From Kastovskya adunca ATA6-11-RM4 (GTDB taxonomy: Bacteria > Cyanobacteriota > Cyanobacteriia > Cyanobacteriales > Coleofasciculaceae), in assembly GCA_019359445.1 (NCBI GenBank), contig JAHHHJ010000005.1, positions 62,001 through 126,000 on the forward strand: a DNA stretch of 64,000 nucleotides, given 5' to 3'. Under the pieces are notes generated by a model that saw nothing but the letters and a program-made list of their open reading frames with translations, did no database searches and was not told the origin of the DNA. Shown one piece after another: positions 47,560 to 63,724 of this stretch. The translations under genes were made by a program, and so were the position numbers. The first letter of the stretch is position 1, and every line of letters begins with the position of its first letter.

Positions 47560-50316
47560 ATGCAGCCTACCGACTCTAGCAAGTTCACCGATCAAGCTTG
47601 GGACTCAATTGTTAAGTCTCAAGATGTTGCCCGCCGCTTCAAAAATCAGCAGCTAGAAGTCGAGCACATAGTAATCGCCCTGCTGGAACAAGACAAAGGA
47701 TTAGCTGCTCAGATTCTTAGTCGAGTTGCTGTTGATATTCCGGCTTTCAAGCAACATTTAGAAGCATTTATCAATCGTCAGCCAAAAGTTGCCACCCTTG
47801 ACCAACTGTACCTAGGGCGTGGCTTGGATGTGATGCTAGATAACGCGGAGGCAGCTAGAGCCGCTTGGCAGGATGACTTTATCGCGGTCGATCACTTGCT
47901 GCTGGGTTTAGCCTCCGACGAGCGCGTAGGACGGCGCTTGTTCAAAACCTTTAACCTGGATGTTCAAAAGCTAGAGGGAGCAATTAAAGCGATCCGTGGC
48001 TCTCAAAAAGTCACCGATCAAGGTTCTGAGTCCCGTTTTGACGCCCTAGAGAAGTACGGACGAGACTTAACAGAACAAGCAAAAGCGGGAAAACTTGACC
48101 CTGTGATTGGGCGGGATGAAGAAATCCGCCGCGTGGTGCAGGTGCTTTCCCGCCGCTCAAAAAATAACCCCGTGCTAATTGGGGAACCTGGGGTAGGAAA
48201 AACGGCGATCGCAGAGGGACTCGCCCAACGTATTATTAGTGGCGACGTTCCCGAATCTTTGAAAAACCGCCAGTTAATCTCTCTAGACATGGGCAGCTTG
48301 ATTGCAGGTGCCAAGTATCGAGGGGAATTTGAAGACCGACTACGCTCCGTGTTGCGGGAAGTTACCCAATCAGGAGGTAACATTGTCCTGTTTATTGACG
48401 AACTACACACTGTCGTTGGTGCGGGAGCGACCCAAGGGGCAATGGATGCCGGGAACTTGCTCAAACCGATGCTGGCGCGGGGAGAATTACGCTGTATTGG
48501 TGCAACCACTCTAGATGAATACCGCAAGCACATCGAAAAAGATGCGGCGCTAGAACGTCGCTTTCAACAAGTTTTTGTTAAACAGCCGGGAGTCGAAGAT
48601 ACAATTTCGATTTTGCGAGGGCTAAAGGAACGCTACGAAGTTCACCACAATGTCACCATTACCGACTCCGCTTTAGTTGCCGCAGCGACGCTATCTGACC
48701 GCTACATTACTGAGCGCTTTTTACCCGACAAGGCGATTGACTTAGTGGATGAAGCTGCTGCCAAGCTAAAAATGGAGATTACCTCCAAGCCTGTAGAGTT
48801 AGAGTCGATTGAGCGGCGGTTGATGCAGCTCAAAATGGAAAAGCTCTCTCTTGATGCCGAAAATCAACAAAATGGTCTGCCCGGGGTTAGCAGTGCTTAT
48901 CGCTCCTCCAAAGAACGCCTAGAGCGGATTGAGCAAGAAATCGCCAGTTTGGAAGAAAAACACTTTGCCCTTGAGGGACAGTGGGAAGGGGAGAAACAAC
49001 TGCGCGAAGATATCAATAACCTGAAGAAAGAAGAAGACCAGATCAAGCTCCAAATTGATCAGGCAGAACGCGCCTACGACCTCAATAAGGCCGCGCAACT
49101 GAAGTACGGACGGTTGGAAAACTTACAACGCGATCGCGAAACCAAAGAGAGCATCCTCCTGGATATGCAGTCCCAAGGACGCGCTTTATCTCGCGAACAA
49201 GTTACCGAAGCCGATATTGCAGAAATCGTCGCCAACTGGACAGGTATTCCGATGAACCGCTTGATGGAGTCGGAGCGCCAAAAGCTGTTGCAACTAGAAT
49301 CCCATCTACACAAACGCGTGATTGGACAAGAGGAAGCTATTTCCTCTGTAGCGGCGGCGATTCGTCGCGCCAGAGCAGGGATGAAAGACCCCGGACGCCC
49401 GATCGGTTCCTTCTTGTTTATGGGACCAACCGGAGTGGGTAAAACCGAACTCGCTAGGGCACTGGCCCAGTTCCTCTTTGACAGCAGTGACGCCCTAGTG
49501 CGGATTGATATGTCGGAGTACATGGAGAAACACGCTGTCTCGCGACTCGTTGGTGCGCCTCCAGGATATGTTGGCTACGAAGAGGGAGGGCAGCTTTCCG
49601 AAGCGATTCGCAGGCGTCCTTACTCCGTTGTCCTCCTTGATGAAGTGGAAAAAGCCCACCCGGATGTTTTCAACATCTTGCTACAAGTGCTGGATGATGG
49701 ACGTATCACCGACTCCCAAGGAAGAACGGTAGATTTTCGCAATACGATTATCGTCATGACCAGTAACATCGGCAGTGAGCATATCCTCAATGTTTCCGGG
49801 GATGACTCAATGTACGAAGAAATGCAGAAACGGGTACTGGATGCTTTGCGATCGCACTTTCGCCCCGAATTCCTCAACCGCGTTGACGACATTATCATCT
49901 TCCACACCCTCAGCCGCAACGAACTGCGCTCCATCGTGAAGATTCAAATGCAACGCATTGAGCGCCTACTTCGCGATCAAAAAATCAAAATTGAACTCTC
50001 CCCTGCCTCCTTGACTTACATTGCCAACGTCGGCTACGACCCCGTCTATGGCGCTCGTCCTCTAAAACGAGCCATCCAGCGGGAATTGGAAAACCCCATT
50101 GCTACAAAGCTACTGGAAAACACCTTCACTGAAGGCGACACAATTTTGGTGGACTGCGTTAAAAACATCCTCAAATTCCGCAAAAAAGCGGTGGAGAAAG
50201 TAGTTCCTCCAGAAGTTGTAGTTGATAATTCTGTTGACGATTTGGCAACGATCAGTCAGATTGATAGTGATACAGAATCCAACACAATTACCATCGTCCC
50301 CAACGCCGAAAGCTGA
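47560..50316 (+). CDS. clpB: ClpB-family disaggregase (ClpB2-like)
   Basis: 918 residues, Hsp100 AAA+ protein that extracts polypeptides from aggregates with DnaK. Order: N domain ([15 protein letters not shown]), first AAA+ domain with GEPGVGKTA, coiled-coil middle domain ([14 protein letters not shown] and on) and second AAA+ domain with GPTGVGKTE and [16 protein letters not shown]. The C-terminal tail of about 50 residues is longer than usual and acidic ([10 protein letters not shown]). Cyanobacteria have a heat-shock-inducible ClpB1 and a constitutive ClpB2. The N-domain is unlike the ClpB1 I remember, and no CIRCE element precedes the gene, so ClpB2 is likelier. Confidence 0.95.
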
Positions 50317-50533: not shown

Positions 50534-51454
50534 ATGAACTCTAATCCCTTAATCTCGGTGGCAGTCTGTACCTATAACCGAGCCGACCGCTTAATTTTCA
50601 CCCTTGAGGGGCTTTGCTGCCAGTCGTTGCCAATTGAACAGTTTGAAGTTTTAGTTGTGGATAACGCTTCCACAGATAATACTCAGGAAATCTGCAAAAC
50701 CTTCGCCACCAAGCTACCCAATTTTCATTACATCTACGAACCAGTTCAAGGACTATCGAAAGCAAGAAATACCGCTCTCCATCAGGCGAGAGGGGAATAC
50801 CTCGCTTACTTGGATGATGATGCTATCCCTTGCGAGAACTGGTTAGAAACAATCTTGCAGACTTTTCAAACCGTTGAGCCAAAACCTGTTTGTGTTGGTG
50901 GACTAATTTCCCCCCTCTGGGAAATTCCCAAACCAGATTGGGTGCATGAATATATAGAACCGCTTTTTAGTATTCTCGACTATGGCAGTCAGCCCTGCTG
51001 GTTTAGTTACCCGAAGTTTCCCTACGGGGCGAATATGACTTATCGACGTGAGGCTCTTTGCCAACTAGGAGGCTTCAGCGAACAACTAGGTCGTCAGGGA
51101 AAAAACTTGCTTTCTGAAGAAGAACGCCTGCTCAATCGTTTACTAGAAAAACAGGGAGAGCGATTTTACTACAATCCCCAAGCCTCAGTTCAGCACTGGA
51201 TTCCCAAGGAACGTATCAACCCTGTTTGGATAATCCGCCGCAGTTATTGGCAAGGAAGATCGGAAGCCTTAGTTGACCAAATACTAGGAAAATCTTTTAC
51301 TCAACAACGCTGGAATAGCATTTGGACAGTGATGAACTGGATGAACCTCAGAAGGCTGGTTGCTCAAGTTTTACCCGATCCCAAAATTCGCATCAAAACG
51401 CGAGTCTGGCTGGCGTGGAGTTGGGGATACTTTTCTCAAGCTTGGTTTCAGTAA
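50534..51454 (+). CDS. GT2 family glycosyltransferase
   Basis: 306 residues, GT-A fold. The N-terminus ISVAVCTYNRADRLIFTLEG is the nucleotide-sugar site, followed by VVDNASTDNTQ, and the metal-binding motif is YLDDDAIP. A later acidic segment (LLSEEERLLNRLLEKQGERF) carries the expected catalytic region of this subgroup. No membrane segment is evident, so it acts at the cytosolic face. It is the first of four genes, all in one direction, that appear devoted to a surface glycan. Sugar and acceptor unknown. Confidence 0.92.
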   Translation: MNSNPLISVAVCTYNRADRLIFTLEGLCCQSLPIEQFEVLVVDNASTDNTQEICKTFATKLPNFHYIYEPVQGLSKARNTALHQARGEYLAYLDDDAIPCENWLETILQTFQTVEPKPVCVGGLISPLWEIPKPDWVHEYIEPLFSILDYGSQPCWFSYPKFPYGANMTYRREALCQLGGFSEQLGRQGKNLLSEEERLLNRLLEKQGERFYYNPQASVQHWIPKERINPVWIIRRSYWQGRSEALVDQILGKSFTQQRWNSIWTVMNWMNLRRLVAQVLPDPKIRIKTRVWLAWSWGYFSQAWFQ

Positions 51455-51552
51455 ATTTCCTCAAGCATCGGTACTTCAGGTAGCTTAAACTGTGACACAG
51501 TGCTACAAACGCTCCGTTTACTCCTTTCCTGTGGGGAAATTTAGAGCCTGAT

Positions 51553-52662
51553 ATGACAGATCTTTCAACCCCAACCAAGATTAAAGAACTGCTGCATCAA
51601 GCTTGTGGGAACTTAGAATCCTTTGAGCAATGTGCGTTGTTAGATTATCCCGACTATCTCAATATTGGCGATCATCTAATCTGGCTAGGCACGGTTTTCT
51701 ATTTAACAGATGTTTTAAAAACAAAAATTAACTACACGGCAAGTATCAAGGATTTTTCCGGAGAGTTAATGGAGCAAAAGGTCGGAAAATCTCCTATCTT
51801 CCTAAATGGTGGTGGGAACTTGGGGGATCTTTGGCTCCCTTATCAGCAGTTTCGCGAATATATTATTTCTCATTATCAAGACCGCCCCGTTATCATATTG
51901 CCTCAAACAATTTATTTTGAGAACAAAGAAAATTTAATAAACACTGCCAAGATTTTTAACTCACATCCAAACCTAATTTTATTTGTCAGAGACAATTACA
52001 GCTATGACATTGCTCACAAATTTTTCCATAACTGCCGGATAATTAAAGCGCCTGACATGGCTTTTCAAATGGTAAATATGCCAGAGCTGGGTTTGCCTGT
52101 AGAACAAAATAAAACTATCTTGTATCACTGTAGGCAAGACCGTGAGTTTAATCAGCGCTTTTCTCCAGAGTTGGTAAACCTTCCAAATCTTGTAGTAGAA
52201 GATTGGATTTCCTACCAGTGGATTACTCGTGAAATGCTGACCAGTTCTTCAGCTTTGTACTGGAAACTACCAGGAATGGTCAAGCTAGTTCGGGAAGGGT
52301 GGCAGCAAAGACTATCGCGCCCCTTAGAGTGGTTATCTCGGAATCAATGGCAAAGTTTGATAGAGCATAAAAACAAATTTGACGCTATTTATAAGCCAGA
52401 GAGACAGCTAGAATCATGGAGTTTATTGCATAGTGGAATTTACCAGTTTAAGCGTCATCAATTAGTAATAACTAACCGATTGCATGGTCATATTCTCTGC
52501 CTGCTATTAGAGATTCCCCATGTTTTCTTAAGTAACTCTTACCACAAAAATGATTCTTTTTATGAAACATGGACTAGTCAAATTCCCTTTTGTCGATTTA
52601 TTAAGGATGCTTCTCAGATAAATGAAGCGGTTAAAGAACTCAGAGAAAAGTTTATAAATTAG
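51553..52662 (+). CDS. Polysaccharide pyruvyl transferase family protein
   Basis: 369 residues. Characteristic pieces: NIGDHLIWLGT near residue 35, FLNGGGNLGDLW, VIILPQTIYF, LILFVRDNYSYD and VITNRLHGHILCLLLEIPHVFLSNSYHK. These are the nucleotide-like (GT-B-type) signatures of CsaB/WcaK pyruvyl transferases, which add pyruvate ketals from PEP to sugars. The gene is A+T-richer than clpB. Some family members transfer other groups, so the exact donor is uncertain. It lies between the GT2 gene and the asparagine-synthase-like gene. Confidence 0.9.
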   Translation: MTDLSTPTKIKELLHQACGNLESFEQCALLDYPDYLNIGDHLIWLGTVFYLTDVLKTKINYTASIKDFSGELMEQKVGKSPIFLNGGGNLGDLWLPYQQFREYIISHYQDRPVIILPQTIYFENKENLINTAKIFNSHPNLILFVRDNYSYDIAHKFFHNCRIIKAPDMAFQMVNMPELGLPVEQNKTILYHCRQDREFNQRFSPELVNLPNLVVEDWISYQWITREMLTSSSALYWKLPGMVKLVREGWQQRLSRPLEWLSRNQWQSLIEHKNKFDAIYKPERQLESWSLLHSGIYQFKRHQLVITNRLHGHILCLLLEIPHVFLSNSYHKNDSFYETWTSQIPFCRFIKDASQINEAVKELREKFIN

Positions 52663-52679
52663 TAATTGATGTTGATTTT

Positions 52680-54485
52680 ATGGCAAATTTTGTTGTAGTT
52701 GTAGATCCTGATCTAGATAGGCGCTCGCGTTTCGTTCAAACTATCAAACCTTTACTTCCTCCAGTAGAAGGCTTAGTCACCAATATGAGCGCGGTTGGAG
52801 ACTTTCACTGCGTTTGGGCAGCGAATCCTAATGCTCCCATTAGCAAGATAGGTGATGATGATGGCGCAGCGGTAATTTGGGGAGAAGCAATCGTTCAAGG
52901 TGAATCGACTCGTATGGATGCCTTTAATTTAAGGCGACAGTGGAAAGAATCACCCAAAGAGAGCTTACCTTTTTTCGATGGTTTTCATGCGATCGCGCTT
53001 TTTCATCCTCATTTTGGACTAGCTGTAAGTGCAGACATTCTGGGACTCTTTCCCATCTACTACTACACCCACAAAAACGTTGCCTTAGTCGCTTCTAGCC
53101 CCGAACTTTTTCGCTACCACCCACTCTTTAAACCAGAGTTTAACCCCGCTGGCTTAGTCGGAATTCTTCTGACAAATGGATTGGTTGATGGACAAACTTT
53201 ATGGAAGGGAGTTAAACGGCTAGATGCTGGACATTCCCTCCATTGGCAATCGTCGCAAGCTCCCAAAGAATACAAACAATACGAAATACCAGGAAATAGC
53301 GAAAATGACTCCTACAGCAATCTTTCATTCTTAGAGCATCTAGATATCCTCGATCAAACTCTTGACGAAACCCTCAAGCGTCACGTCTTAGATTCGGAGA
53401 AATACGCTCTCATGTTATCTGGAGGGCTTGATTCCCGGATGCTAGCTGGTTTCCTTCACCGCCAAGGCAAAAAGCCTATCGCTTTAACCTTTGGAAACAA
53501 AAGTGATATAGAAATGCAGTGTGCCATTCCAGTTGCTCGCGCCCTTAGCTTAAAACATGTTACTGCTAACACTGGATTAGGTAACTACCCTTTCTATGTT
53601 GACCTAATCGCTAAGTGGGAACATCTTGCTAGTGGCTGTAACGGTATTCGGCGTAGTGGAATGTACTCTGAGTTGAACAACGTAGCAAATAGAGCTATTG
53701 CAGGTTATTCACTCGGCCCGATATTAGGAGTTAAATTAGCCTACCCGCAATCAAAACAAGCTCCATCATTTACAGATTTCTTTAGTAGTGGTATCAACCG
53801 TTGGGGCTTATCGCCACAGTTGCTAGATAAACTACTGAACAAAAAAGTATTTGGCAACTTAGTACCAGAGACTCTAAATCGCCTTCAATGCATTTATGAC
53901 CAATACTCTGATGAAAATTTTAGGCGGGCGTGGTGGTTTGATATTTATCATCGCCAAAGGTTTCATATCGGTTCTTCTGGGTGGAAGCTCTGTTTTGGGG
54001 TTTGGCCAACGCTACCACATCTAGATTGGCAGCTTTTAAAAACTACTGCTGTTTTACCTCCTAAGAGCGTTGGTAATCGACGCGGTCAAAATGAACTGCT
54101 GTGTTCTCGATTTCCAAAGCTAGCTGCACTACCTCTGGATCGTAATGATTTCAATGTTGAGCCACTTCTACCGAGCCGTACCCGACAGCGAATAAATTAT
54201 TTGTTTCGCTTGCAGCGAAAATGGAGACGCTGGCAGCATAAATTAGGATATGAGCGACGCTACTACTACCGAGTGTATGACATCAATAACGCCGGGTGGT
54301 CAAGTGTGCGGCATCACGTAGAACCTTATAAAGAAGTGGTACAGCATCTTTTTCATCAATCAGCATTGGAGGCATTACTTCCACCACCTGATTGTCAAAT
54401 GATGTTGAATGATGACTTGATTGCTGGTGCTTCTGGGCGCAAAGCTTTGTTAGGATTCTTGCTCTGGTCAAAAAATCACCTGTAA
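52680..54485 (+). CDS. Asparagine-synthase-like PP-loop protein lacking the glutaminase cysteine
   Basis: 601 residues. The C-terminal half carries the synthase PP-loop SGGLDS (247-252) followed by FGNKSDIEMQ, as in asparagine synthetase and its relatives. The N-terminal half resembles the class-II amidotransferase domain (FFDGFHAIALFHPHFGLAVSAD, LGLFPIYYY, VALVASSPEL). However, the protein starts MANFVVVVDP with no Cys at position 2, so it cannot use glutamine in the usual way. It may use ammonia or another amine, or form an amide or lactam bond as in beta-lactam synthetase and lasso-peptide cyclases, which share this loss. The stop overlaps the start of the next gene (TAATG), implying a shared function. 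Confidence 0.85.
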   Translation: MANFVVVVDPDLDRRSRFVQTIKPLLPPVEGLVTNMSAVGDFHCVWAANPNAPISKIGDDDGAAVIWGEAIVQGESTRMDAFNLRRQWKESPKESLPFFDGFHAIALFHPHFGLAVSADILGLFPIYYYTHKNVALVASSPELFRYHPLFKPEFNPAGLVGILLTNGLVDGQTLWKGVKRLDAGHSLHWQSSQAPKEYKQYEIPGNSENDSYSNLSFLEHLDILDQTLDETLKRHVLDSEKYALMLSGGLDSRMLAGFLHRQGKKPIALTFGNKSDIEMQCAIPVARALSLKHVTANTGLGNYPFYVDLIAKWEHLASGCNGIRRSGMYSELNNVANRAIAGYSLGPILGVKLAYPQSKQAPSFTDFFSSGINRWGLSPQLLDKLLNKKVFGNLVPETLNRLQCIYDQYSDENFRRAWWFDIYHRQRFHIGSSGWKLCFGVWPTLPHLDWQLLKTTAVLPPKSVGNRRGQNELLCSRFPKLAALPLDRNDFNVEPLLPSRTRQRINYLFRLQRKWRRWQHKLGYERRYYYRVYDINNAGWSSVRHHVEPYKEVVQHLFHQSALEALLPPPDCQMMLNDDLIAGASGRKALLGFLLWSKNHL

Positions 54486-55702
54486 TGCTACAAACTCATA
54501 TCTGGCAAGAAGCATCTGTTGAAGCTAATGGCTCAGTTACGGTTAGTGCCAAGATTGAGCTTCCTAAAAAATCTCTTCGTTTGTGGTACAGCATCCCCGT
54601 TGAGTTTAGTACTCTACTTACCGATAGCTGTGACCCATTTTTAGTGGCGATGATGTTGCCAGCAATGCGGCATTCAGCACCATTGATCGTTCATGGCAAA
54701 GTTTCGCCCTCACTCCTGCAAAATTTAGTGGAGTTTCAAGCTGCTTGGGCTTGCTGGCGCCCTAATGAGTATTACCCCATTGAAATCTCTGCCGAAGTAG
54801 AGGAAGAAATACCTATTATTGCCTCAGAAGTAGCAGTTGCTGCTTTCTCCGGGGGAGTCGATAGCTGCTTTACCGCATTTCGCCACCGTGAGAATCGCTG
54901 TGGCAGACAAGCACGCAACTTACAAGCCGGATTAATGGTTCATGGGTTTGATATTCCCTTAGAAGAATCTTTGGTATTTGATAGAGCCGCTGAAAAGTCA
55001 AGATTAATCTTGGACAGCTTAGGAATGAAGTTAATTCCGATAGCAACCAATTATCGACAGGTGCTGCCAAGCATCAATTGGCTAGATGCCTATGGACCCG
55101 CGATCGCTTCTAGTTTAATGTTGCTTTCAAGAAGCTATAACGTTGGTTTAATCGGTAGCGCCTTCTCTTACCACAATCTGCTGTTGCCTCGTGGCTCTAA
55201 CCCAGTTACCGATCCGTTCCTATCCAGCAAAGCTTTTCAAATTATTCATGATGGTGCCGGCTTTGATCGTTTAGGGAAAATCAAGGAAATTGGTCACTGG
55301 CAAGAAGCGACTCAACATTTGAGAGTGTGCTGGCAAGGCGCTCAAAAAGACCGTAATTGTGGGCGATGCGAGAAGTGTATTCGGACAATTCTAGGTTTTC
55401 GCGCCCTAGGCTTGAGTAAGCCTGCTTGCTTTGATCAAGATGTAACAGACGAGCAAATTATAGGGATCAAGGGATTAACTGCAATTCAGCTTTATGAAAT
55501 GGAGTTAATTTTACAAGCAGTGAAAGGCTCTGTGACAGATTCCTGGGTTAATGCCTTGGAAAAGTGCATTACTCGTAACCGTCGCCAAATGGTACGGGAA
55601 CAGAACTGGACAACCCTAAAACAGAGCTTACCCCCGACTCTACTAAAGCAGTGGCGATCGCTACAGTTGCGCCTGTCTTCTCAATCCCGCTATAAGGATT
55701 AA
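54485..55702 (+). CDS. PP-loop ATPase with QueC-like zinc motif
   Basis: 405 residues. Residues 1-115 form a beta-rich N-terminal part of unknown kind. Then comes the PP-loop AAFSGGVDSCF (SGGVDS at 122-127). Near the C-terminus C282-x9-C292-x2-C295-x2-C298 (NCGRCEKCIRT) is the cysteine pattern that binds zinc in QueC, the 7-cyano-7-deazaguanine synthase. The whole is far longer than QueC (about 225) and no other queuosine gene is adjacent. It probably adenylates a carboxylate for an amide- or nitrile-type product on a glycan, nucleotide or protein. It overlaps the upstream gene by one base, so the two PP-loop enzymes are translated together. Confidence 0.8.
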   Translation: MLQTHIWQEASVEANGSVTVSAKIELPKKSLRLWYSIPVEFSTLLTDSCDPFLVAMMLPAMRHSAPLIVHGKVSPSLLQNLVEFQAAWACWRPNEYYPIEISAEVEEEIPIIASEVAVAAFSGGVDSCFTAFRHRENRCGRQARNLQAGLMVHGFDIPLEESLVFDRAAEKSRLILDSLGMKLIPIATNYRQVLPSINWLDAYGPAIASSLMLLSRSYNVGLIGSAFSYHNLLLPRGSNPVTDPFLSSKAFQIIHDGAGFDRLGKIKEIGHWQEATQHLRVCWQGAQKDRNCGRCEKCIRTILGFRALGLSKPACFDQDVTDEQIIGIKGLTAIQLYEMELILQAVKGSVTDSWVNALEKCITRNRRQMVREQNWTTLKQSLPPTLLKQWRSLQLRLSSQSRYKD

Positions 55703-55818: not shown

Positions 55819-57837
55819 ATGACAATCCTGGAACAGGGCAACATTACTATCCATACTGAGAACATCTTTCCCATCATCAAGAAGTCTCTCTACACCGATC
55901 ATGAGATCTTCTTGCGGGAACTGATTTCTAACGCCGTGGATGCCATCCAGAAACTAAAGATGGTATCTTTTGCAGGCGAAGTTGACGGTGAGCTGGAGGA
56001 GCCGGAAATTGTCATTAACATTGATAAAGACAAAAAGACTCTCTCCATCTCTGACAACGGTATCGGCATGACCGCCGATGAGGTGAAACAATACATCAAT
56101 CAAGTCGCCTTCTCCAGCGCTGAGGAATTCGTTCAGAAATATCAAAAAGACGCTGACCAGCAGATCATTGGTCACTTCGGTCTAGGCTTCTACTCCTCCT
56201 TTATGGTGGCGAGTCAGGTAGAAATCGATACCCTTTCCTATAAACAAGGAGCCACCGCCGTTCACTGGTCTTGTGACGGTTCGCCAGCCTTTCAACTTGA
56301 AGAGTCAAGCCTTAGCCAGCGCGGAACGACAGTAACTCTCACTCTCCAAGACGAAGAGATTGAGTATCTAGAACCGATTCGGATTCGACAGTTGGTGAAA
56401 ACCTACTGCGATTTCATGCCAGTACCCATCAAGCTTGAGGGTGAAGTCCTTAACCAGCCCAAAGCTCTATGGAAAGAATCGCCCCAAAATCTGACTAAAG
56501 AAGACTACCTAGAGTTCTATAACTACCTGCACCCCTTCCAGGAAGAACCGCTTCTGTGGGTGCATCTGAACACCGACTATCCCTTCCTACTCAATGGCAT
56601 CCTCTATTTCCCTAAGCTGAAGCCGGATGTGGATGTGACTAGGGGACAAATCAAGTTGTTCTGCAACCAGGTATTTGTCAGCGACCACTGTGAAGAAGTT
56701 ATTCCCAGCTTCCTGATGCCACTACGGGGTGTTGTTGATAGTCCTGATATTCCGCTTAATGTCTCCCGTTCTGCCTTAACGAATGACCGCACAGTCAGGC
56801 GAATTTCTGACTATATTGCTCGGAAAGTAGGCGATCGCCTCAAAGAACTCTACAACGAAAATCGCCAAGAATACATTCGCTGCTGGCAAGACGTCGGCAC
56901 CTTCGTCAAGTTTGGCTCCCTCAACGACGAAAAATTCAAAAAACAAATTGAAGATATCGTCATCTTCCGCAGTACTTATGAAGGAGAAAAACACGATAGC
57001 CAGAACACCCCCCCCGTAGCCACTCCAGAAACAGCTCCAGAAGTTGAAGTGCAATCCCAAGAAGGCGATGTCTGGCAAGATGTCACCTCAGCTACTCCCT
57101 CTGAACCTACCGTTACTCAGCAGGGAGAGACTTATACCACTCTCAAAGAGTACCTAGAACGCAACAAAGAGCATTATGAAAACCGCGTCTTCTATTGCAC
57201 CGACCCGGTAGCCCAAGCGACCTATGTACAACTGCACAAGAATCAAGGTTTGGAAGTCCTGTTTATGGACTCCTTTATTGATACTCACTTCATCAGCTTC
57301 CTAGAGCGGGAATATTCTGATGTCAAGTTCTCTCGCGTAGACTCTGACTTAGATCAAACTCTGATTGACCAGGATCAGGCGGGAGAAATTGTTGACCCCA
57401 CAACTAACAAAACCCGCAGCGAAGTAATTAAAGAGCTGTTTGAGACATCTCTTAATAAGCCAAAAGTTGACATTCGTACTCAGGCGCTCAAATCAGATGA
57501 CCCCCAAGGAACTCCACCCGCAATGGTACTTTTACCAGAAGCCTTGCGACGACTACGGGATATGACGGCGCTCATGCAGCAACAAGCGGCACAGTTTCCC
57601 GAAGAACATGTCTTGGTTGTCAATACAGCGCACCCACTGATTGAGAACTTAGCCAAGCTGAGCCAAAGCAGTATTGTGCAGGGGGCAGGTCAGTCGCCTT
57701 CTGGTGAACTAGCTAACTTAATTTGTCAGCACGTTTATGATCTAGCACTGATGGCACAAAAAGGCTTTGATGCTGAGGGAATGAAGACGTTTGTGGAGCG
57801 GTCAAATCAGGTACTCACTCGCCTGACAGAGCGTTAG
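55819..57837 (+). CDS. htpG: Molecular chaperone HtpG (Hsp90)
   Basis: 672 residues. The N-terminal ATPase has ELISNAVDAIQKL, DNGIGMTADEV and GHFGLGFYSSF. The middle domain includes the catalytic arginine stretch RGVVDSPDIPLNVSR, and there is a conserved C-terminal dimerisation domain. An acidic linker-like insert (TPETAPEVEVQSQEGD) occurs mid-protein. Cyanobacterial HtpG supports heat, cold and oxidative stress tolerance and tetrapyrrole and phycobilisome assembly. Confidence 0.97.
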   Translation: MTILEQGNITIHTENIFPIIKKSLYTDHEIFLRELISNAVDAIQKLKMVSFAGEVDGELEEPEIVINIDKDKKTLSISDNGIGMTADEVKQYINQVAFSSAEEFVQKYQKDADQQIIGHFGLGFYSSFMVASQVEIDTLSYKQGATAVHWSCDGSPAFQLEESSLSQRGTTVTLTLQDEEIEYLEPIRIRQLVKTYCDFMPVPIKLEGEVLNQPKALWKESPQNLTKEDYLEFYNYLHPFQEEPLLWVHLNTDYPFLLNGILYFPKLKPDVDVTRGQIKLFCNQVFVSDHCEEVIPSFLMPLRGVVDSPDIPLNVSRSALTNDRTVRRISDYIARKVGDRLKELYNENRQEYIRCWQDVGTFVKFGSLNDEKFKKQIEDIVIFRSTYEGEKHDSQNTPPVATPETAPEVEVQSQEGDVWQDVTSATPSEPTVTQQGETYTTLKEYLERNKEHYENRVFYCTDPVAQATYVQLHKNQGLEVLFMDSFIDTHFISFLEREYSDVKFSRVDSDLDQTLIDQDQAGEIVDPTTNKTRSEVIKELFETSLNKPKVDIRTQALKSDDPQGTPPAMVLLPEALRRLRDMTALMQQQAAQFPEEHVLVVNTAHPLIENLAKLSQSSIVQGAGQSPSGELANLICQHVYDLALMAQKGFDAEGMKTFVERSNQVLTRLTER

Positions 57838-59056: not shown

Positions 59057-62000
59057 ATGTCTGACAGGAAACCTGCCATGTCACGCCGCAAAAAACCAGT
59101 CAACACGCTTCAGAAAATATTTCAGCACCTTTTGAGGTTAAGTAGAATCCTGACCAAAGGGTTGATGAACTGGCTGTTGCGAAGCTTAATGCTTCTGGGA
59201 CGACGTCGCTCTTCAAATCTTGGTAGAGCCGGCTTTGTGCTGCCAACGGTGATCATGGTGATGCTGGTAGTCATTTTGCTGACTACAGCAATCATGATTC
59301 GTTCGTTTGACCGCTCGAAGAATGCCAGCAACTACCGGGTAAATGAGGCGGTTTTGAATGCCACCCAGCCCGCCTTAGACCGTGCTAAGGCGAAGATAAA
59401 TCGTCTGTTTTCTGTAGATGAGACTAATAGACAAGGCAATACTCCCCCAGAATTCAACATTGCGGACATCCTTGAAGAGGAAGTTGGGTCGGAGGGTACC
59501 TATACCTTTGGAGATGAGATTCAGCTACAACTGGAAGCTGACTTTGATGGAACAGCGGGTATAAACACTAACGAAGAAACGCTGAAATCAGCTTGGAAGT
59601 TTCCGGTTGATACTGATAACAACGGTCGGTTTGATAGTTACACACTCTATGGAATTTATTTCCGTTACCCCGAAGGCAGGAAGAAAGGGCCATTAGAAGC
59701 TAGGGCGCTACCAATGTCTGGGGGGGCAACAGGGTGTTCTGTCGGGGCTGGCAACATAGCCGGTTGGTTTAGTACGGGTGGTAAGTCGAAGAAAGCATTT
59801 TTTACTTATGTTGCCACTGTGCCGATTACGGAAGAAGTTACCACCGCTGTCGTTACAGATTCAGGGAGAAGTATTCCACCGACTCAATTTGAAACTTATA
59901 GAGGTAATCGAGGCTTTTCTGCCTTGGAGCTACAACAAGACCAGGCAAGAATAGCGCTGGATAACAACGCTATCTGGTTTGATGATGATATTCAAGTTAG
60001 TAACGCTCCGACCTTTCGTGTCAATGGTCGAATCCACACCAACGGCAACTTGATGTTGCGGTCTGCTAATCCCCTAGAGCTGCATCAAGTCAGTAGCGCC
60101 TACTCCTGCTACTACGACCCAGACAACGCCAAGATTGTTGTTGCTGGTAACGTAGCGACTGGAGATATAAGAAATACCGATGCGGTGGCCAATGACAATG
60201 TCAAAGCTTATTTGTACAGAGGACAAGGTGTAACACCGGGCACCTCTAGCATCAATGACAAAAATAAGACGACTACAGCATTAGGCGGCGCAACCGTCGC
60301 CTACAACAAGACGGCTTATGATCAGCGCATTGGTGTAATGGTGAGGGGCGCTCTTAATCTATATGGTGGCGCTGACCCGGCAGTAGCAACCGTCACGGAA
60401 GTTAATGCCGTAGGCAGATATCCACAAGACCTCAAAGACTTTTTTAAAAGGAGGTTTGACGCTTCCGGAGAGCAAAACCTAGAGAATGTACTAGAGTCTT
60501 ACTTTAAGCAACGGACTCGTCGAGTTCCCTATGCGGAAGTTCCTCTTAATGGAATAGCTACTGCAGTAAAACCGGCAACTACGGCAAAAACAGACGATCC
60601 GGCTTCTGGCGATTTTGTCTTTGGGAGTGCGGGTGAGATTAAACCGCCTCCAGAGTGGATGTTGATTGCAGATCCAGGTACTGGTGCTGTCGGAAACTAC
60701 ACTAATTTGGCGCTGAGGATTAATGCAACTGACGCCCAACCAATGGATTTGGAGGCAGTTGATCCAGATAAGGTAGCGGAAAGAAAGGAATCACTCATTG
60801 GCGATCGCATTTTAGTAGGTAACAACCTACCCTATCGCTGGTATAACGGTTCGACATTCCAAGAGCCAGGAATAAAACAGGATGTATTTAGTGACGGCTC
60901 GACAACTGCTGTCGCGTGGAATAAGGCGGATGGCACTGCTGACACAGGTAACCAGCGCAAACGCCCTAGTCGTGTGCAAATCTTGGATGACTTGGGTGAT
61001 ACCAGCCGGAATGGCTTCTGGGAACGAGCGGCTGCCAAAAACAGCCCTGCGTTTGACCAAGAACAACTGTCTGGTGGGTTGCGAGTGGTAACAGGTGCCG
61101 GAATTTACATTGATGGTTTAGATCAAGGAACAACTGGAACAGGAATACGCGGAACAAATTCCTTCTTGCCTGCTCCTCCAACTGTGGCAGCGTTAACAGC
61201 CGACGGCATAACTGGCTTACCAACAGGGGTAACTGATGCAAATGTGGTGTGGCCCGACACCATGCCGATGTATAAAGATGATGGCGACAACATTGTTAAC
61301 GCCACAGACTTAAAAGGCGACCTGCAAATGCGGGCAACTGTCGTTTATCACTACGCCGCTAATAAAGGTAAAGACCAAACACCTATTGCTTGCATTAACA
61401 GTTACTATGACCCCACCACTGAAGCTACAGCCGGGGCATTTAATAACGGCAAAAATTACCCCATTCCAGCAAGAGACTACACCAATGCTAGGCTCGTAGC
61501 ACAATCTAAGATGGTTTTCCCAGATGGACGCTGGGCAAATAAACCTTTGTATGATGCTCTAAACAGGGCTGTTGCTGATCGCACCCTTGCAGACAATGCA
61601 GCGGTTGATTCTGCCCTGTGCGCTCTGAGCATTTTAGATGGTGCAGCTGCTACACCTGTTCCGGCTGGAACTGCTGGTAAGGTAGCGGATGGTGCAATCA
61701 AAGAAGCGACTTTTCTAGATGCCAGACAAGTGAAGGCACTTCACAAGCCGAAGGAGGATGCTACCGGAAATCCTATTGCTGATGCTACGACACTCGCAAA
61801 TGCTAGAACTCCGGAGCAACTGAGAATAGCTAAACTAGGAGCATTGACAACCGACTATGACTTGCCAATTGAACAGCGCCAACCTCTAGAAATACGGGTT
61901 ACTGAGATCGATCTAAACTCACTCAGGACAACAACAATTGGTTTAGGAGAATACTTATTACCCAACAGCGGCATTATTTACGCTACACGGGATGATGCGC

Positions 62001-63724
62001 TACCAGATATTAGTGCTGGTGAGGGGAAGTTAGAAGGTGCCACAGACTTCAAACTCGATCCCACTCGTCGCCCTAATGGTATTCGACTAATTAACGGTCG
62101 CATTTTAGCCCGTGGCGCTAACAATGCATACAACGCTGATGAAAAGGGCTTGATTCTCGCCTCAGACTTGCCAGTCTATATCAAGGGAGAATTCAACCTC
62201 CACCAAGAGTTCGGAACTACTACTAGGTTAGAAGAGTTCAAGGCTTCAGATGCATTAGCAGCTAATTACAACAACTTCTATACCCGTGGTAGTACGGGAG
62301 CGAATAACAACCGTAATGACAAGTTTGCTTGCCGTCAAAACCAGCAAGGTTGCAGTGGTAACGGTGACCAGTGGCGTGCTGTAAGGATTCTCTCGGATGC
62401 TGTCACCCTGCTATCAGGAGACTTCAAGGATGGTGTTCGCAGTAATGGTAGCTACGACGTAAACAACAATGCTGGGAACTTAGCTGTAGAAAAGCGTCTG
62501 AAGAATGGCTTCTGGTGGAATGGGTTTGCTACCAGTAGACCTTACTGGAACACCACCCCCAACAGTGTTCCAGAACCAACAACACAGCTAACTTCCTATC
62601 TAGCAAATGGTGTAACACCAATTCAACGTCGGGTAAACTTCCCTGAGTACCGAATGGAAATTTGCCGGAAGCTCCCAGTCTCCGAATGTACTCCCACTGA
62701 CTGGGATTTGGCAGGAGCAGGTACAACTGCAACACCACCAGCAGCTCTAGCCGATCAAATCTATCCCCGTCGAGTTGCTTTTGATAGAGATCCGGTTTCT
62801 AAAAATCTTCTTCCGGTTGGTGGCCCTTACCGACCTTTAGGGGTAGGTTGCCCAACTACTGGATGTATATACGGTGGTACAACAGTAGGTACTAACTATG
62901 GCACCCCTAATGACAATGCCCTTTGGTTCTGGACAACAAATTCCACTACCAATCCAGGAGCAATCGGCGATCGCGTTTACACCGCAAACCGACCGCTGTT
63001 CTATCTACCTCCTGCGGATTTAAATAACGATGGTACCCCTGACCCTGACGGTCAACCCCTGTTAGTACCAGTACTACAGCTACACTCTCCAAACGGAGCA
63101 CCTGGTAATAACGGTACGGCTTTTAACGGTTACATCAACGACTCATGGATGCAGCGGGCTACAGAGACAAGATACAATGGCGTCTTCGTCATGGGCGACT
63201 CTCCCGCCAGACCAGCTAATGCTTCTTATGAAGCTGAGACTGGAGGCGGACTGGTTAACTTCCCACGTTTCTTAGAAGCCTGGGAGGCAGTAAATGAAGG
63301 CGCTCCAGCTGCAGCCAGAATCAATGGTAGCTTTATCCAATTCAAGAAGAGCCTCTTTGCTACTGCACCGTTTGAGGCAGTAGATAGCTTTACTGTAGAC
63401 AACTCCCTCTTTTTCGACGGTGCAAATCCTGACCATACCAGTGCGAACTTTGGCGGATTAAACGACTACAGATACAGAGGTGGTGGTGCTTCCCGACGAG
63501 CACCCTACTACCGCGCACCTGACCGGGCATGGGGTTATGATGTTGGCTTGCTGTCTCAGACTCCTGATTTATTCTCCAAACGATTTGCCTCACCGGATGT
63601 CGGTACTCCTAACGAGTACTACCGAGAAGTGGGTCGAGATGACCCCTGGGTTGAAAGCTTGCTGTGTGGAGTGCACGTCAATGACCCGGACGAGCCTGCT
63701 GTTGAGGGGCTGTCCTGTTCCTAA
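59057..63724 (+). CDS. hpsA: Hormogonium polysaccharide secretion pseudopilin HpsA
   Basis: 1555 residues from the ATG at 59057 (ATG at 59078 is an alternative). The N-terminus is basic, then a prepilin-type segment G59-F60-V-L-P-T followed by the hydrophobic helix VIMVMLVVILLTTAIMI. The usual Glu at +5 is a Thr (T64), so it is an atypical pseudopilin. The huge C-terminal part is rich in Asn/Asp-Gly turns and beta structure. HpsA is known from the hps locus of Nostoc punctiforme, needed for polysaccharide export and gliding of hormogonia. A truncated hpsB follows, confirming the locus. Confidence 0.92.
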   Translation: MSDRKPAMSRRKKPVNTLQKIFQHLLRLSRILTKGLMNWLLRSLMLLGRRRSSNLGRAGFVLPTVIMVMLVVILLTTAIMIRSFDRSKNASNYRVNEAVLNATQPALDRAKAKINRLFSVDETNRQGNTPPEFNIADILEEEVGSEGTYTFGDEIQLQLEADFDGTAGINTNEETLKSAWKFPVDTDNNGRFDSYTLYGIYFRYPEGRKKGPLEARALPMSGGATGCSVGAGNIAGWFSTGGKSKKAFFTYVATVPITEEVTTAVVTDSGRSIPPTQFETYRGNRGFSALELQQDQARIALDNNAIWFDDDIQVSNAPTFRVNGRIHTNGNLMLRSANPLELHQVSSAYSCYYDPDNAKIVVAGNVATGDIRNTDAVANDNVKAYLYRGQGVTPGTSSINDKNKTTTALGGATVAYNKTAYDQRIGVMVRGALNLYGGADPAVATVTEVNAVGRYPQDLKDFFKRRFDASGEQNLENVLESYFKQRTRRVPYAEVPLNGIATAVKPATTAKTDDPASGDFVFGSAGEIKPPPEWMLIADPGTGAVGNYTNLALRINATDAQPMDLEAVDPDKVAERKESLIGDRILVGNNLPYRWYNGSTFQEPGIKQDVFSDGSTTAVAWNKADGTADTGNQRKRPSRVQILDDLGDTSRNGFWERAAAKNSPAFDQEQLSGGLRVVTGAGIYIDGLDQGTTGTGIRGTNSFLPAPPTVAALTADGITGLPTGVTDANVVWPDTMPMYKDDGDNIVNATDLKGDLQMRATVVYHYAANKGKDQTPIACINSYYDPTTEATAGAFNNGKNYPIPARDYTNARLVAQSKMVFPDGRWANKPLYDALNRAVADRTLADNAAVDSALCALSILDGAAATPVPAGTAGKVADGAIKEATFLDARQVKALHKPKEDATGNPIADATTLANARTPEQLRIAKLGALTTDYDLPIEQRQPLEIRVTEIDLNSLRTTTIGLGEYLLPNSGIIYATRDDALPDISAGEGKLEGATDFKLDPTRRPNGIRLINGRILARGANNAYNADEKGLILASDLPVYIKGEFNLHQEFGTTTRLEEFKASDALAANYNNFYTRGSTGANNNRNDKFACRQNQQGCSGNGDQWRAVRILSDAVTLLSGDFKDGVRSNGSYDVNNNAGNLAVEKRLKNGFWWNGFATSRPYWNTTPNSVPEPTTQLTSYLANGVTPIQRRVNFPEYRMEICRKLPVSECTPTDWDLAGAGTTATPPAALADQIYPRRVAFDRDPVSKNLLPVGGPYRPLGVGCPTTGCIYGGTTVGTNYGTPNDNALWFWTTNSTTNPGAIGDRVYTANRPLFYLPPADLNNDGTPDPDGQPLLVPVLQLHSPNGAPGNNGTAFNGYINDSWMQRATETRYNGVFVMGDSPARPANASYEAETGGGLVNFPRFLEAWEAVNEGAPAAARINGSFIQFKKSLFATAPFEAVDSFTVDNSLFFDGANPDHTSANFGGLNDYRYRGGGASRRAPYYRAPDRAWGYDVGLLSQTPDLFSKRFASPDVGTPNEYYREVGRDDPWVESLLCGVHVNDPDEPAVEGLSCS

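Follow-up and report, generated by a model that had tools for sequence, protein, structure and literature searches.

QueC converts a carboxylate to a nitrile through an amide in ATP-dependent steps, and its relative Cap9 conjugates a carboxylate to a protein N-terminus (PMC13329287). The QueC scaffold has recently been found in anti-phage protein modification besides tRNA modification. Among the ketal-pyruvyltransferases (PF04230), two Arg residues and a His of Pvg1 have roles in binding phosphoenolpyruvate (PEP; PMC10435577). Here we describe relatives of both groups in one locus, at positions 50534-55702 of a stretch of 64,000 nucleotides (hereafter, the window) from the filamentous cyanobacterium Kastovskya adunca ATA6-11-RM4 (JAHHHJ010000005.1, positions 62,001 to 126,000; our contig C24; genome 5.09 Mb), whose hps genes and nearest named relatives (Scytonema, Gloeothece, and Nostoc) fit this affiliation. 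Its four genes encode a family 2 glycosyltransferase (GT2), a pyruvyltransferase-family protein (PPT), an asparagine-synthase-like protein (ASN), and a QueC-like PP-loop protein (QUEC). Our preferred reading, to which we would assign a probability of roughly 45%, is that they constitute an exchangeable glycan cassette linked to the hps genes, in which GT2 would be combined with pyruvylation by PPT and amidation by QUEC, with ASN as an optional component.

The locus consists of four open reading frames on the + strand, as a preliminary description of the sequence had proposed: the HpsE-like GT2 (50534-51454, 306 amino acids; PF00535, 105 bits), PPT (51553-52662, 369 amino acids), ASN (52680-54485, 601 amino acids), and QUEC (54485-55702, 405 amino acids). 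The first two genes are separated by 98 bases and the next two by 17, and ASN and QUEC overlap by one base within the TAATG at 54483-54487 on the + strand (TAA 54483-54485, ATG 54485-54487), an overlap that the description had also reported. Its assignments to GT2, pyruvyltransferase, and asparagine-synthase-like families held, while the fourth gene has QueC-type motifs but scores below the QueC cut-off. The arrangement is not a product of chance, because its order is kept in related genomes and every ASN lies directly upstream of a QUEC.

The widely conserved unit is the PPT-QUEC pair, which is found across several bacterial phyla. Close orthologues of QUEC (54-70% identity) are present in seven other genomes among the 22 of the family, and orthologues at 49-57% identity in four more genomes of a 386-genome sample of the phylum. 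Of 24 genomes, many of which are related and do not represent 24 independent events, 19 have a PF04230 gene at most ~10 kb away from QUEC, against an expectation of ~0.24 calculated from the number of PF04230 genes and the size of the genome; for these counts, coordinates were read by hand from PF04230 positions and gene maps, and G388 was omitted because its contig end is too near. Linkage extends from cyanobacteria, including Gloeothece, to Azospirillum, Psychrobacter, and metagenome-assembled genomes of a spirochaete and an acidobacterium, and a distant QUEC subfamily (29% identity) likewise has an adjacent PF04230 gene (G358, G398, and G399). The annotated PPT-QUEC pair of Azospirillum is flanked by genes other than glycan-assembly genes. 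QUEC and PPT are neighbors in a capsule-type cluster in Psychrobacter, and in Scytonema sp. NIES-4073 PPT-ASN-QUEC is part of what looks like a Wzx/Wzy-type exopolysaccharide cluster; some neighbor functions in the Psychrobacter, Scytonema, acidobacterium, and Pragia fontium loci were judged from the sequences themselves, without family scans. In genome G386, PPT is found with four GT2s next to clpB, ~60 kb from ASN-QUEC beside htpG-hpsA, and a single locus seems to have been split by rearrangement, separating PPT from QUEC.

The QUEC homologue of Pragia fontium sits in a cluster (L062:5246-15171) without PF04230 or obvious glycan-assembly genes; judged by eye, its neighbors seem to encode an aminotransferase, a DapA-like lyase, a Gfo/Idh-type oxidoreductase, a glyoxalase-like protein, an old yellow enzyme-like flavoprotein, and an isopropylmalate-synthase-like protein. 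On large Gloeothece plasmids (L017 and L018), three glycosyltransferase genes, the last a GT2, precede PPT-QUEC and the set adjoins non-ribosomal peptide synthetase genes. A Priestia megaterium plasmid (L025:4940-8828) carries two diverged QUEC-like genes that come after a PF04230 gene, and a DUF6395 gene is close by; in G129 (L046:323-2635) a degraded second QUEC-like copy with an in-frame TAG precedes the QUEC gene.

QUEC is not a canonical QueC, but an apparently undescribed, QatC-sized branch of a known superfamily. With canonical QueC (TIGR00364, PF06508) it shares the SGGxDS PP-loop, a CxxCxxC zinc-type cluster, and the core fold; it differs in being nearly twice as long, in lacking the QueC signature motifs, and in scoring below the cut-offs of both models (PF06508, 17.4 versus 22 bits; TIGR00364, 12.6 versus 150.3 bits). 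It also falls below the cut-off of DUF6395 (21.5 bits, cut-off 25). The Pfam family that underlies the 2026 QueC survey (PMC13329287) has a cut-off that the window protein does not reach. The window copy has SGGVDS, C-x9-C-x2-C-x2-C, and an N-terminal extension of ~110 residues, and the strict SGGxDS form occurs in 19 of 26 homologues. Its structure model is confident (predicted local distance difference test, pLDDT, 93.8) and has a QueC-type PP-loop core with a C-terminal Cys4, which places the protein in the QueC superfamily by fold. Aligned with VIA-align, the model reached a Z of 15.0 with QatC (295 residues, root-mean-square deviation [rmsd] 4.8), 14.0 with QueC, 13.1 with Cap9, and 10.9 with MnmA, the difference between QatC and QueC being too small to rank and treated as a tie. 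Foldseek alone gave no match to the model at E < 0.001, and clear matches to the QueC group came from the second look with VIA; searches of the PDB returned nothing with the single QUEC sequence, and the QUEC profile gave chance-level matches only. Because the profile-profile alignment of QUEC with QueC was limited to the Cys cluster, we make no claim that their catalytic residues are equivalent.

The anti-phage protein QatC (qatABCD system; PDB 9y01 and 9y02) resembles QUEC in its QueC core, its PP-loop, its C-terminal Cys cluster, and a ~400-residue chain that includes extensions, whether or not these fold alike, but the two share 9% identity at the rmsd of 4.8, and QUEC stands in a glycan gene context without qatA, qatB, or qatD, its neighbors being glycan genes, clpB, htpG, and hpsA. 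Two other roles were considered for QUEC and dropped: a canonical one in queuosine synthesis, as the genome encodes a separate canonical QueC on contig C32, and one in a defense system, as there are no qat neighbors and PADLOC gave no match to QUEC or to ASN.

PPT is probably an active pyruvyltransferase, to judge from its conserved residues. It belongs to PF04230 both by score (118 bits, cut-off 25.3) and by its PEP-site Arg and His residues, and its profile matches Pvg1 (5ax7) at 1.1e-49. Arg146, Arg194, Arg309, and His311 are invariant in 13 of 13 sequences, and the last three correspond in the alignment to the Arg, Arg, and His with which Pvg1 binds PEP. From CsaB it differs in its score to the equivalog model (32 bits, cut-off 213) and in being paired with QUEC.

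ASN is an optional cyanobacterial addition to this pair. It was found in eight genomes, namely seven of the family's 22 and Scytonema sp. NIES-4073, and, with at most three candidates scored per genome, the phylum sample yielded it in the window's genome only. All eight copies lie directly upstream of QUEC, with frames that overlap also in G386, G387, and G388; most lineages have QUEC but no ASN, among them G403, which belongs to this family, and G027. In a tree of 23 QUEC sequences with low backbone support, the ASN-linked sequences do not form one clade, and G027 groups with two of them. A single gain of ASN is unsupported by this poorly resolved tree; the alternatives would be repeated loss or gain of ASN, or transfer of QUEC between genomes.

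The ASN protein is a member of the asparagine-synthase superfamily by PF00733 (31.9 bits, cut-off 21) and SGGxDS; the window copy has SGGLDS, and SGG, Asp251, and Ser252 are kept in all eight. Because position 2 is Ala in every copy, the protein has no N-terminal nucleophile (Ntn) glutaminase residue, Cys2. It scores below the cut-offs for glutamine-hydrolysing asparagine synthetase (TIGR01536; 61.3 bits, cut-off 267) and for the WbpS-type uronamide amidotransferases (TIGR03108; 49.5 bits, cut-off 816.9). Its profile matched the hydroxyamidotransferase 7ylz, beta-lactam synthetase (8e-6), and the carbapenam synthetase CarA (1e-4); beta-lactam synthetase and CarA are, like ASN, AsnB relatives, but very remote from ASN. 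Residue 346, which aligns with the Asp of the GYGSD motif in CarA, is Asp in six of the eight homologues and Gly in the window copy and in G392; this Asp is a presumed metal ligand, as in the AsnB enzymes. The AlphaFold model of ASN is poor (pLDDT 56).

In the cassette as we envisage it, GT2 would add a sugar, and PPT would place a pyruvate ketal from PEP on a sugar, introducing a carboxylate. By ATP-dependent adenylation, QUEC would activate a carboxylate on that glycan, most economically the pyruvyl carboxylate, and react it with ammonia or an amine to give an amide; such amide formation from an ATP-activated carboxylate is suggested for QUEC by analogy with QueC and Cap9. ASN, its glutamine hydrolysis lost, might serve as an optional, clade-specific helper or as another amide ligase, cotranslated with QUEC. 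The pyruvyl carboxylate is proposed as the substrate on a single basis, the PPT-QUEC linkage, for which Azospirillum provides the strongest case because its pair has no annotated glycan-assembly genes beside it. We are more doubtful of a bolder proposal, that QUEC is an ATP-dependent ligase that equips pyruvylated surface glycans with an amide not yet described, as part of a cross-phylum, two-gene unit with a dedicated pyruvyltransferase; candidate products on the glycan would be carbamoyl-ethylidene or amine-linked pyruvyl groups.

Several observations weigh against the amidated-ketal cassette. Besides the relatedness of the genomes counted, five of the 24 have no PF04230 gene near QUEC, G386 among them, seemingly through its rearrangement, and the Pragia fontium genome, which has a QUEC homologue, has zero PF04230 matches. 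The motifs YxQxHxxE, VPxRN, and YPDC were found in none of 26 QUEC homologues, while the same patterns were recovered in four of five QueC controls; because these signatures are absent, the substrate of QUEC is not readable from that of QueC. Finally, a review on pyruvate substitution (PMC6801904), searched by term, yielded no amidated pyruvate ketal.

The main rival is uronic acid amidation, in which PPT and QUEC would make two separate decorations of one glycan: (i) a pyruvate ketal, and (ii) a uronamide or other amide placed on a different sugar by QUEC, with or without ASN. WbpS and WbqG, of the AsnB family, make uronamides in O antigens, with WbpS acting in this way in P. gingivalis (PMC7468200, PMC3684757), and ASN resembles them in being an AsnB-like protein of a surface glycan cluster. 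A sugar-nucleotide epimerase downstream of QUEC in Scytonema, and a nucleotide-sugar dehydrogenase-like protein recognized by eye near QUEC in the acidobacterium, are consistent with such a pathway. We nevertheless consider it unlikely, if the most serious competitor, given that no copy of ASN has Cys2 and that its score is far under the cut-off of the WbpS family (49.5 versus 817 bits), and that no annotated nucleotide-sugar dehydrogenase adjoins the two-gene unit of Azospirillum. Another rival is a Cap9-like activity, by which QUEC would couple a 7-deazaguanine or related carboxylate to an amine, either of a glycan or of a partner protein in the polysaccharide machinery: the top structural match of QUEC is QatC, with QueC and Cap9 on a par, and a modification of the QatB N-terminus has been proposed for QatC (PMC13279940). 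The chemistry of QatC is itself still at the stage of a proposal, however, the substrate-recognition motif YPDC is absent from 26 of 26 homologues, and with neither qat-like partner genes nor a PADLOC match, we regard this activity as very improbable.

The preliminary description had singled out the two PP-loop genes, as unrelated enzymes suggesting a two-step amide or nitrogen modification of a surface polymer or conjugate, and had held that the idea would fall if the two were never linked in other genomes. They are linked elsewhere, all eight ASN copies being beside QUEC, but they are not the core unit, as QUEC mostly occurs without ASN and stays with the pyruvyltransferase instead; nor are they unrelated, being distant members of one PP-loop superfamily. 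Amide chemistry survives as the natural expectation for both folds. Two successive PP-loop reactions on a single substrate, both of them obligatory, are favored by the eight of eight ASN genes directly upstream of QUEC, joined by TAATG in the window and by overlapping frames in three other genomes. Such a requirement for both enzymes is nonetheless improbable, because QUEC persists without ASN, even in G403, a member of the family, and in G027, whose QUEC groups with ASN-linked ones, and because the window ASN has neither Cys2 nor, like that of G392, Asp346. That no described pathway has this set of genes was borne out within the literature searched, which covered the field in part.

The left boundary of the interval around the four genes is clpB (47560-50316, + strand) and the inner right boundary htpG (55819-57837, + strand), each an open reading frame that also flanks the interval in relatives. 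Beyond htpG lies hpsA (59057-63724, + strand; NF038301, 1474 bits, cut-off 400), which starts 3.36 kb past the end of QUEC, in agreement with the 3.4 kb given previously. Just outside the window, hpsA is adjoined by hpsB (213 bits, cut-off 150) and hpsC (382 bits, cut-off 200), followed by two more pseudopilin-like genes. The order ispH-clpB-[variable]-htpG-hpsA recurs in relatives with sufficiently long contigs, and in relatives free of the cassette the interval is filled by GT2 and GT4 glycosyltransferase genes and sulfotransferases. G027 belongs to another order within the class and has PPT, QUEC, htpG, and hpsA arranged as in the window, without ASN. The region clpB-[...]-htpG-hpsABC is a variable interval that would hold exchangeable cassettes, and it looks like a capsule-type diversity locus; the earlier view of a glycan-tailoring cluster is supported. 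In loci L106, L107, L109, L111, and L112, the clpB-htpG-hpsA interval contains HpsE-type GT2s, GT4s, and sulfotransferases in differing combinations.

The GT2 of the window is itself under the HpsE equivalog cut-off (NF038302, 147 versus 300 bits). Its position is occupied in relatives by true HpsE or other GT2s; several GT2s of their intervals score 470-508 bits, above the curated cut-off for HpsE, and in G401 a true HpsE lies directly upstream of PPT-ASN-QUEC. True HpsE genes are also present elsewhere in the window's genome, and HpsE is not a unique marker because it is multi-copy in the family. One HpsE gene of this genome (G000:C37:110196-112383) is close to another PF04230 gene, with no QUEC. 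The locus shares with the hps locus the adjacent hpsA, hpsB, and hpsC and, in relatives, HpsE-family glycosyltransferases, but differs from it in its PPT/ASN/QUEC set, which is absent from the papers covered by a limited literature search. The link to hormogonium polysaccharide, raised as a possibility in the preliminary description, is supported by position, not by function.

What is new here is a branch of a known enzyme superfamily; the kind of locus is already known. If the proposed activity is correct, surface glycans would join the uses of the QueC scaffold through this unnamed branch, which is QatC-sized and linked to pyruvyltransferases, and a new sugar modification would be predicted. 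The variable, capsule-like interval beside hpsA may diversify the slime needed for cyanobacterial gliding.

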